From Brachionus koreanus (Eukaryota; Rotifera; Eurotatoria; Ploima; Brachionidae): a DNA stretch of 64,000 nt. The DNA is taken from contig PJRA01000303.1 of NCBI GenBank assembly GCA_016987375.1, positions 130,201 to 194,200 on the forward strand. The letters run 5' to 3'. Position numbers and translations under genes: made by a program. Under the pieces are notes generated by a model, which saw only the letters and a program-made list of their open reading frames with translations, made no database searches and was not told where the DNA came from. Positions 49,514 to 53,033 of this stretch are shown piece by piece (position 1 is the stretch's first letter; every line of letters starts with the position of its first letter).

Positions 49514-52500
49514 TTAAGCACTCAAGAAATTTTTTAATTTTTGCTCGTCTCTTTCCAACCAAGCTTGATTAACTTGGATGCTTTCAAGCCCTTGCTGAAT
49601 GCTTCGCTGTGCAGCTGGCACAGGATGAGCCTTGAAAAATGCTTGTACATCTTGGTAGTCTTTTTGAGTAGCAAAATTTTCGGTAACAGTCTAAAAAGAA
49701 TTCATTTAATTTTTCATATAAATAAATTCATTTTTCTAAAATTCACCTTGCACAAACGAGTGATTAAAAATCCTGATGAATATCTTTCATAAATGGTATT
49801 CCAATTTTCTTTGACAAATTGCCAAGTCAAATCGGAAGACAATTTTGTAGATGTATTCGAGCAAACTGCACAAATAACAGTCACTGAATCTTGTGATCTG
49901 ACTGATGGCTATTTAGATTAAGAAAAATTTTTTAATTATTAAAAATAAGTACTTAAAAAAAAACTAACAGAAAGAGCAAAATTAAGGACTTTTTTGATCA
50001 AAGACTCAGATCTAACCGATCCTAGAGAAGTGGCTATTCTCATTTTTTCCTCCTGTAAATCAGATCTATTGTGTAAATCAATTAGTCTGTCCAAAAGAGC
50101 TTCTTGACTGTCATACAACGCAGACGAATAGACGGCAGATCTAAGATCAGCTGGGACCAAGTTTCCATTAAAATGAGCCTCAAGTCTTCTTTTAGCTTCA
50201 TCGATTGTTTCACGATCACCATTTATTCCCAAAGTGCGCAAAACAGTTGCGCGACACATACCTTGTAGACCGCTCTCGCCTGGAATCGGGTCCCATCCGA
50301 GTTTTTTCGAAATTGGCTTCAACAATTTGACAACAAAAGCTTGAAATTGTGGCTGAAAGTCAGTATTAAGCAATGTGTGTGACAAGCTCATTAAATTAGA
50401 AATAAGATCACGCCAAACAGTAACATTTTCTTCGGTTGAATAGCCCTCCAAAAATTTAAGAACATCAGCAGCAGACAACAGACCAGCTTGAGACAAAGCA
50501 AACACATCGCTCTGAAGACCAAGTCTATCAGTGGGATGTAAAGTTTGTTCGCGAATAACATTTGAAAGTTTAAGTAAAAGTTCTGGTGAATAGTTAGATC
50601 TATAAATTCCAATAGTATTCTTATTCAATTTAATCCATTCATCAGAAGCCAATACACCTAGATTTACTTCATCTGTTCTATTCTCGAGCACAATTTCTTT
50701 ATGAATATTTGGATATGATGATTTTGTTACAATTGTTATTGGTACTTTCCATAAAAAGTTTTCTTGTTCGGCCGGTTTAGCTCCATTAGAAAAAAATCGT
50801 TCTTGACTAAGCTTCAAAACAGTTTCGCCATTTGAATTGACCAAGTGTGAAATGTTGATGTAAGGATAGCCAGTTTGACTGGTCCATAGTTGCATAAGTT
50901 CATTGACCGGCTTTTTGGAGGCTTCGGTCAACGCTTCCCACAAGTCTTCAGTAACAGCGTTTCTGTATTTGAACTTTTCCAAATAGTTGTGCAAACCAGT
51001 TCGGAATGCATCATCGCCAATGTAACTGTGTAACATTCGGATAGCAGTAGCACCTTTACTGTAAGAAATGGCATCAAAAATTTCATCAACTTCGGATGGA
51101 GGCCCAACTGGCACTTCAATCGGATGACTATTCTTTAAACTGTCCAATTCAAGAGCTCTGCAATAGTCGCTGTTTACAAAATGCGTCCAAATGTCCAGCT
51201 CAGGCAAACAGTGATCTACGCATAAATACTCAATCCACGAAGCAAAGCCTTCGTTCAGCCATAAGTGAGTCCACCATTCCATAGTAACTATATTTCCGAA
51301 CCATTGATGTGCTAGCTCATGTCCTACCACAATGGCTACAGTTTGTTTGGACATTAAAGAAGAATTTTTCGGATCTACCAGCAATGCTGTTTCTCTATAA
51401 GTAACCAGACCCCAGTTTTCCATTGCACCTTTAAAAAAAAAAAACAAAATTAACATTTTATTTTTTAAGCATAAATCTTGGCATCGATTCATTACCTGCT
51501 GCAAAATCGGCTATGGCTATTAAATCAAGCTTTGGCAATGGATAGCTAATTCGGAAATAGTCCGTATAAAATGGAAGGGTTTTAACAGCAACCTGATTTT
51601 TAAAAATAAAAAAATAAAAATTTTATAACTTTTTTTTGTTGGCTTAATTTCAAAAAATTTAATTAAAGAAAAAAACGAATCGATTCAAGATTTCTTCTAT
51701 ATAAAATCAAAAATACCGAAAATTATCAATAGATTTTTTTTTTTCAATAAAATAAATAAAATTTTTGATAACTTTTTTTAAATGGCATTTTTGTTTTAAT
51801 ATTTATCCTAGACTCACCAAAGCTTAAATGAGTTACAGCAATCATGTCCAATTTAGGCAAGTTAAATTTAATGCCAAAAAAATCAGCATAAAATGGCAAG
51901 CATTTACAAGCTATCTGTTTTTTTCTTAATTAAATTATTTTTTTTTTTGGAAAAAAAATTGTACCTCAAGGGCAAATCTACCAAGTTCTTGTTTACCCAA
52001 AGGGGTGTACACTCGGATAAGGACTCCATTTCTATCTTTATCCTCAATGTAGTCATATTCACCCACAACAAAAGCCAAAAGGTAAGTTGACATAATTGGA
52101 GTTCGATCAAATCTGAATCGCTTTAAGTTTTGGCTTCCTTCAACTCGGTTGGCATCGAGCAGAGGCATGTTAGACAGGACTGTTTTGTTCTCTTCGGCAA
52201 TTATTGTCACATCAAATGTTGCTTTTAGAGCTGGCTCGTCCCAACATGGCAGAGCTCGTCTAGCATCAGCAGCTTCGAATTGTGTCGTAGCTGCATATCT
52301 TTCTTCACCCGATGGATGAACATATTTACTTCTATAGAAGCCTTTGAGTTTATCATTTAAAATGCCTGTGTAGGAAATGTGAAGTCGTCCTGTTCCAAGT
52401 GGCAGCGCTTGTGGAAAGGTAATGGTGCCTAGTTCATTTTGATCGTCTAATTTAACGCTTGAACTTGTCATCTTTGTGCCATTCGAGGTTTCGAATACTG

Positions 52501-53033
52501 CTTCTTTGAAGGACAGTTCTGCACTGTTCAACAAGACTGTGTTAGTTTCTGAATTAACCTAAAATTAAAATCAATTAATTTTCATCTAAAAATTAAATTA
52601 GCATGTTTTTACTTTGACATCGATGACAACTTGACCATTGAATGTAAAATTTTTAAAATCAGGCTCAAGCTCTAAAGCGTAATTGACCGGAAGAACGCTT
52701 TTTGGCAAACGAACAAATTCAGTAGTGCTCATTTTGGAAGAATTTTTTTCTGAATAAATATTTCTGATTTTTTTTTAAATTGAAAAATTTTAAAATAAAT
52801 TTTTTGAAATTTTTTTACCTAAAATTTAAACTTTTGCATATTAAATTCGATTTAGGGAAGACATTATCCCGAACCAAAACCTGAGAGCGCTCAATTGAAC
52901 CAAGTCTGCTATTTGTCAGTATTTTGTAGCTTTGTATTGAGCTACGAGAATAATTTTTGGTCTTCTGAATAACAGACTTGCTTAATAAATTCCTAAAAGA
53001 AAGCACCTTATTTGAGCCAAGTAGTTTAAACAT
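49514..53033 (-). CDS. NPEPPS: Puromycin-sensitive aminopeptidase (M1 zinc metallopeptidase)
   Basis: Removes N-terminal residues from peptides in the cytosol. Exons from the 5' end: 52819-53033, 52613-52763, 51965-52558, one of 51818-51914 or 51496-51592, 49969-51428, 49747-49908, 49514-49690. With either alternative exon the product is 951 residues (vertebrate PSA about 919). Motifs: GAMENWG at 353-359; zinc site HELAH with His389, Glu390 and His393, and Glu412 in LWLNEG; the SYSKG tyrosine region; KGFYRSKY and FPCWDEP-like LPCWDEP in the N-terminal domain. The first exon encodes a Ser/Arg/Lys-rich leader resembling a mitochondrial presequence; an internal Met ([10 protein letters not shown]) in exon 2 would give a shorter cytosolic form, as in vertebrates. 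The exon 1-2 junction needs the acceptor ATCAG at 52764-52765 to keep frame. Confidence 0.94.
51496..51592 (-). CDS. NPEPPS: Aminopeptidase alternative exon, canonical version
   Basis: 97 nt, phase 0 in and phase 1 out. It encodes [20 protein letters not shown] then [13 protein letters not shown], matching the near-universal sequence before GAMEN in PSA-type enzymes. Donor GTAATG, acceptor AAATCAG. Proximal to the catalytic exon. Confidence 0.88.
51818..51914 (-). CDS. NPEPPS: Aminopeptidase alternative exon, divergent duplicate
   Basis: Also exactly 97 nt with the same phases. It encodes [20 protein letters not shown] then [13 protein letters not shown], clearly homologous to the exon at 51496-51592 but with IADFAAG changed to VTHLSFG and an added Cys pair. 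Its GTGAGT donor is strong and the acceptor is AAAACAG. No stops or indels, so it appears to be under constraint. Including both exons would shift the frame, which points to mutually exclusive use. Confidence 0.85.

Follow-up and report, generated by a model that had tools for sequence, protein, structure and literature searches.

Can a single aminopeptidase gene provide two peptidases by exchanging one short exon beside its active site? A gene for PSA, an M1 aminopeptidase, in the rotifer Brachionus koreanus raises this question, as an earlier note had described in it two tandem, homologous 97-nt exons of the same phase, either of which would complete the enzyme, the swapped residues ending right before the motif GAMEN. 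The window analyzed here, a stretch of 64,000 nucleotides, is part of contig C53 (PJRA01000303.1) of an 83-Mb genome, and the PSA gene lies complete on its minus strand.

The tandem exon pair and its age

The coding parts of the gene were located as follows, with GT at the start and AG at the end of the introns used:

52613..52732, minus strand: PSA coding exon 1, with the ATG start at 52732 and the donor GTAAAA
51965..52558, minus strand: PSA coding exon 2, ending in phase 0 ahead of the alternative pair
51818..51914, minus strand: exon A, 97 nt, phase 0 in and 1 out, with Phe at the S1 gatekeeper position
51496..51592, minus strand: exon B, 97 nt, phase 0 in and 1 out, the canonical PSA exon, with Ala at the gatekeeper position
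49969..51428, minus strand: PSA exon 4, starting within the Gly codon of GAMEN and containing the HELAH-18-E zinc site
49747..49908, minus strand: PSA exon 5, from the spliced translation
49514..49690, minus strand: PSA exon 6 with the stop codon, from the spliced translation

Both GAMEN and HEXXH-18-E were found in the translated product, placing it among the PSA / M1 aminopeptidases. Among the best 120 of 7990 scored proteins, the closest named relative of the gene is the PSA of Brachionus plicatilis (90% identity, 100% query coverage). The isoform with exon A is collinear with human PSA (PDB 8sw0, 9o5k) over residues 5-867 with 997-998 bits, the next family being ERAP1 with 474 bits.

Exons A and B lie where the earlier note had placed them, each with an AG ahead and a GT behind. 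They are identical at 56 of 97 nt, and their peptides at 16 of 32 residues (17 of 33 counting the common Gly). Either exon alone gives an open product of 869 residues, whereas inclusion of both leads to a stop after 273 residues and omission of both to a stop after 255, confirming that one exon completes the enzyme and that two break the frame. The exchange also ends at GAMEN, as had been described, and comprises 32 residues plus a split Gly codon; leaving this Gly aside, the last five residues ahead of GAMEN are THLSF in A and ADFAA in B. Across all 869 residues, 16 positions distinguish the isoform with A from the one with B. We consider it fairly probable that A and B are mutually exclusive exons, that the A isoform is a PSA with a reshaped S1 pocket, and that the choice between the exons is made by intron stems together with the logic of the reading frame.

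Several simpler accounts of the pair could be set aside. Mutual exclusion due to too short an intron is ruled out, the A-B intron being 225 nt long as compared to 50-67 nt for the others of this gene. A third alternative exon was rejected, as a comparison of both exon peptides with the PSA loci gave, apart from A and B themselves, no match within the gene region with an E below 0.6. Exon A is not an assembly artefact, since it was found on two contigs, C53 and C5; on C5 it belongs to a collinear copy with 89-98% identity in three sampled stretches over about 51 kb of C53, which is probably the other, uncollapsed haplotype, the alternative being a recent duplicate. Regarding exon A elsewhere in the genome, a diverged PSA paralogue located on contig C4 (L037, 3720-6757; 49% identity over 314 residues) has a single exon here, with NDVEI ahead of GAMEN and hence Ile at the gatekeeper position.

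Comparison with the listed PSAs identified exon B as the canonical form and exon A as the divergent one. The comparison set consisted of 118 of the best 120 proteins listed (7990 scored), P0027 and P0057 being without the stretch before GAMEN. Exon A retains eight of the ten positions that are invariant among the 118 PSAs, the remaining two being changes from Tyr to Phe, and nine of its 32 residues are absent from all 118, four of these nine falling within the last five positions. Between A and B, synonymous sites are saturated (pS 0.75) while pN is 0.34 and dN 0.45, and the differences by codon position (14, 8, and 19) lean weakly to coding constraint.

Neutral decay was simulated from exon B up to the 41 differences seen in exon A, under three settings with 3000 runs each; these simulations cover decay from the duplication onward and do not bear on recent disuse. 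The frame was still open in 15-18% of runs. Per setting, 1, 6, and 25 runs attained the observed identity, 2, 4, and 6 attained the invariant residues, and 0, 0, and 0 attained open frame, identity and invariant residues jointly. Since the simulations never meet all three criteria, and in view of pS versus pN, exon A was kept as protein long after the duplication, and a chance open frame is ruled out. Both exons are under selection as coding sequence. We propose that an old tandem duplication would have given rise to exon A, which would then have been retained as protein while changing strongly just ahead of GAMEN.

The S1 gatekeeper residue and the expected enzyme

Excerpts of the structural literature place Ala315 of human PSA directly ahead of GAMEN (316 on) in the S1 subsite, where E. 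coli PepN has Met260 and LTA4H a Tyr; the proposal made there is that broad P1 acceptance in human PSA is permitted by the small size of this Ala (PMC10343166). The excerpted text of an M1 inhibitor study names this variable residue the 'gatekeeper' and describes a narrow S1 tunnel resulting from Tyr267 in LTA4H (PMC6222927). In the stretch before GAMEN, the alignment of isoform A with human PSA is gap-free, and the Phe of isoform A therefore falls on the S1 gatekeeper position. Conservation of this position is very high, the residue ahead of GAMEN being Ala in 114 of the 118 PSAs and Ser, Pro or Gly in the other four; a small gatekeeper residue, which is a usual and not a defining feature of PSA, is present in isoform B (Ala) and absent from isoform A (Phe).

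Joining exon 2 to B would give an ordinary PSA of broad specificity. Joining exon 2 to A would give an equally long isoform, its zinc site and GAMEN intact and ADFAA exchanged for THLSF, in which Phe instead of the small Ala would narrow or reshape the S1 pocket and restrict or shift the P1 preference. The suggestion of two specificities in one gene thereby gains a concrete basis in the change from Ala to Phe at the S1 residue adjoining GAMEN, given the putative use of exon A. The earlier note had further stressed that the swap lies next to the motif binding the substrate N-terminus; it does end at GAMEN, but GAMEN itself is within the common exon 4, so that the change would be expected in the S1 side-chain pocket and not in recognition of the substrate N-terminus. 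An effect of isoform A outside P1 is also possible, as the equivalent residue of PfA-M1, Val459, is assigned in excerpted text to the estimated S2' pocket (PMC8286833).

Phe at this place occurs in natural M1 sequences. We found 134 bacterial PSA-like enzymes from MAGs and kept 80, of which 66 could be read by the motif pattern and 14 gave no pattern match; three of the 66 loci (L097, L111, and L123) have Phe ahead of GAMEN, as PDFAF-GAMEN, and are natural comparators for isoform A. The same holds for P0001, a bacterial match from a protein search centered on exon A, and for an M1 gene of the present genome (L041, contig C16, 4573-5364) with PTFPF-GGMEN, which we presume from the GGMEN motif to be LTA4H-like. 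The occurrence of Phe in these sequences indicates that it is compatible with the M1 fold. Position -4 differs in this respect: it is Asp in 117 of the 118 PSAs (Glu in one) and in all 66 bacterial relatives, and His in exon A, and isoform A could hence be impaired. On sequence grounds, we expect isoform A to have a changed P1 preference, the main alternative being a loss of activity.

That alternative would make isoform A a spliced but catalytically dead or dominant-negative PSA, binding peptides or partners without trimming them. The most altered run of exon A adjoins the active site and includes the change of the near-invariant Asp as well as four of the nine residues seen in none of the 118 PSAs, all of which is in line with a dead isoform. 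On the other hand, the zinc site and GAMEN are encoded by the common exon 4, the gatekeeper Phe is found in natural M1 sequences, and eight of ten invariant residues are retained, and we therefore regard a dead isoform as unlikely and a PSA with a reshaped S1 pocket as the better reading of exon A.

Intron pairing and exon use

Complementary stretches were found in the introns around A and B:

51918..51940, minus strand: arm a, purine-rich, just upstream of the AG of exon A; its pairing with arm a'' (87% complementarity over 23 nt) would leave exon A in the loop
51652..51674, minus strand: arm a'', pyrimidine-rich, the partner of arm a within the A-B intron; pairing in the full duplex from 51676
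51674..51693, minus strand: arm b'', in the A-B intron; 19 bp with arm b, core -19.8 kcal/mol; would loop out exon B
51473..51493, minus strand: arm b, in the post-B intron from donor +3; pairs with arm b'' over the exon B donor

Duplex energies of the 15 pairs formed by the six PSA introns were compared to dinucleotide shuffles, in a test that was post hoc and on sequence that is very AT-rich. The A-B and post-B introns gave the strongest of the 15 pairs (-33.7 kcal/mol, z -4.7), with one of 2000 shuffles as good in C53 and two of 500 in the C5 copy. Second came the pre-A and A-B introns (z -2.1, the next pair having z -1.3), a duplex that is AT-rich and modestly significant, with 23 of 500 shuffles as good in C53 and two of 500 in C5. 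Taken by itself, the longest perfect complement shared by the A-B and post-B introns is not unusual (153 of 1000 shuffles), and only the whole duplex stands out. The core arms b'' and b are unchanged between C53 and C5, which are two closely related copies.

In the full duplexes, arms a'' and b'' overlap by 3 nt. The order of the stems is crossing, one looping out B and the other looping out A, and both position and order fit a bidirectional model. According to this computed prediction, two crossing intron stems are probably the basis of exon choice. At a first level, formation of one stem or the other would decide between A and B, the stem that loops out B taking in part of the B donor; at a second level, the logic of the frame would act, as inclusion of both exons or of neither would lead to an early stop.

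Folding of longer stretches gave a more varied picture. When 51429-51700 or 51429-51817 is folded, the best structure contains the stem around exon B. For 51429-51964 the best structure lacks this stem, and over a 562-nt stretch its pairing probability in the ensemble is 0. None of 100 shuffles was as stable as the best structure of 51429-51964 (z -2.84), in which exon B is instead joined by 36 pairs to the latter half of exon A together with the donor of A (51806-51860 with 51496-51542), so that this donor would be hidden. Exons A and B also hold a 9-nt perfect complement, AAGCTTTGG / CCAAAGCTT. Pairing between the two exons is possibly a further control on the exon A donor, or else due to chance.

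With respect to exon use, all 24 rotifer-like PSA representatives (P0003-P0026) among the best 120 of 7990 proteins are closer to B than to A, and none is of A-type. One of them is from B. plicatilis and 23 are without a species name, with 59-85% identity, as compared to at most 55% for named molluscs and others; the 23 records lie on contigs of 2.1-3.2 kb, a size in keeping with transcripts, which they may be. Since the proteins were clustered at 90% identity and 16 of 869 residues set the two isoforms apart, A forms could hide behind B representatives. Two protein searches centered on exon A returned no A-type protein, with little power, as no rotifer protein of either type was among the matches listed, and no relative was found on viral contigs.

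These records, together with the early stops caused by A plus B or by neither exon, would suit a mainly regulatory role of exon A as a 'poison' exon, which lowers PSA expression through the frameshift without yielding a functional A protein. So would the acceptor of exon A, which is purine-rich and looks weak, pyrimidines occupying 5 of the 16 positions from -5 to -20, whereas the five other acceptors of the gene have 9-15. Such an exon, however, needs neither an open frame in the phase of PSA nor amino acid constraint, and exon A has both, making a purely regulatory role improbable. The earlier reading of A and B as mutually exclusive exons, in contrast, is well supported by the anatomy of the locus (length, phase, homology, frame, constraint, presence in both copies and introns paired in the order of the published model), and it is from this anatomy that we infer splicing of exon A.

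The second copy and comparable systems

The earlier note had named absence or frame disruption of the duplicate in close relatives as evidence against its proposal. This was checked on the C5 copy of the same genome, in which the duplicate is present and intact; the C5 and C53 copies have a common history, and C5 is not independent evidence from another species. Between the copies, exon A is changed at one of 97 nt and exon B at three of 97, all synonymous and without any amino acid change, and the whole isoform shows 44-46 synonymous versus 8 nonsynonymous nucleotide changes (dS 0.085, dN 0.004). With indels left out, approximately 4-11.1% of positions differ in five introns and 1.8% in the sixth, as do 10.6% in the 3' flank and 3.3% in the 5' flank, while the last 40 bases ahead of exon A and the first 12 behind it are identical. 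With synonymous sites between A and B at saturation, the two exons arose by duplication long before C53 and C5 separated. That exon A is a recently disused relic of a former mutually exclusive exon, its frame still unbroken, is very improbable, for although no A-type protein was found in the low-power searches or among the 24 listed rotifer-like PSAs, the acceptor is pyrimidine-poor and the neutral simulations address decay since duplication only, the single synonymous change in exon A compared to the divergence of introns and flanks, and the identical bases on both its sides, speak against recent disuse.

With A and B taken as mutually exclusive exons, we tentatively extend the proposal to one PSA gene producing two peptidases by regulated splicing via the crossing stems, a broad B form and an A form whose S1 would be partly filled by Phe in an LTA4H-like manner and which might process other N-termini depending on stage, sex or stress. 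LTA4H-type M1 enzymes resemble isoform A in their bulky aromatic gatekeeper, which is Phe in the LTA4H-like gene of this genome and Tyr267 in human LTA4H according to the excerpted text (PMC6222927). They differ in being encoded by separate genes and in having GGMEN for GAMEN, whereas the change in isoform A would come about by splicing.

The remark of the earlier note that no such case is known for PSA agrees with the literature on mutually exclusive exons, splice variants and exon duplication in PSA and aminopeptidases, which shows none in titles and abstract beginnings, most subscription journals being outside this scope. Titles and abstract beginnings of the rotifer literature on mutually exclusive exons or alternative splicing likewise contain no such case. 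Human PSA (NPEPPS) is a collinear orthologue with GAMEN, the same zinc site and, like exon B, Ala at S1, but no mutually exclusive exon was found for it, judging from titles and abstract beginnings; a human NPEPPS isoform that, in the excerpted text, joins exon 10 to exon 17 represents an event of another type (PMC2654914).

A close likeness was found in COQ-2 of C. elegans, where, in the excerpts covered, exons 6a and 6e of coq-2 are equal in length (134 nt there, 97 nt here) and mutually exclusive, the swap affects the enzyme core, and one form is canonical while the other is limited to some lineages (PMC7434440). COQ-2, however, is a prenyltransferase whose substrate switch is proven by transcripts and genetics (PMC7434440, same excerpts), whereas the rotifer PSA is a peptidase and its case is read from the anatomy of the gene. 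The authors of that study describe exon swaps that change the substrate as rare (PMC7434440, in the excerpted text). In CYP4F3, a single splice swap similarly alters the substrate specificity of an enzyme, although this is a tissue-specific P450 and the present enzyme a rotifer M1 zinc aminopeptidase (cited in the excerpted part of PMC7434440). Substrate-changing exon swaps are thus already known, and new here, pending transcripts, is the enzyme family, for which no M1 counterpart was found in the literature portions covered.

As to the choice of exon, srp, RIC-3, MRP1, and Dscam are similar in having two crossing pairs of complementary intron sequences, the simultaneous formation of which is impeded and each of which loops out one exon, according to excerpted text (PMC6071210). 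Those are described cases (same part of PMC6071210), whereas the rotifer PSA is a prediction from one genome with two copies, in which one of the stems is only modestly significant. If the proposal is true, peptidases would join COQ-2 and CYP4F3 among the few enzymes that owe their choice of substrate to splicing. A canonical form kept beside a constrained alternative exon would then be a natural test of the role of the S1 gatekeeper with the rest of the protein constant, and the rotifer PSA locus would be a compact example, open to testing, of two exons flanked by paired introns.

At the other end of the gene, a Met-initiated open stretch upstream of PSA exon 1 (52819-53033, minus strand) could be spliced in frame to that exon. 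By eye it resembles a mitochondrial presequence, and it may provide a second, targeted N-terminus of PSA.
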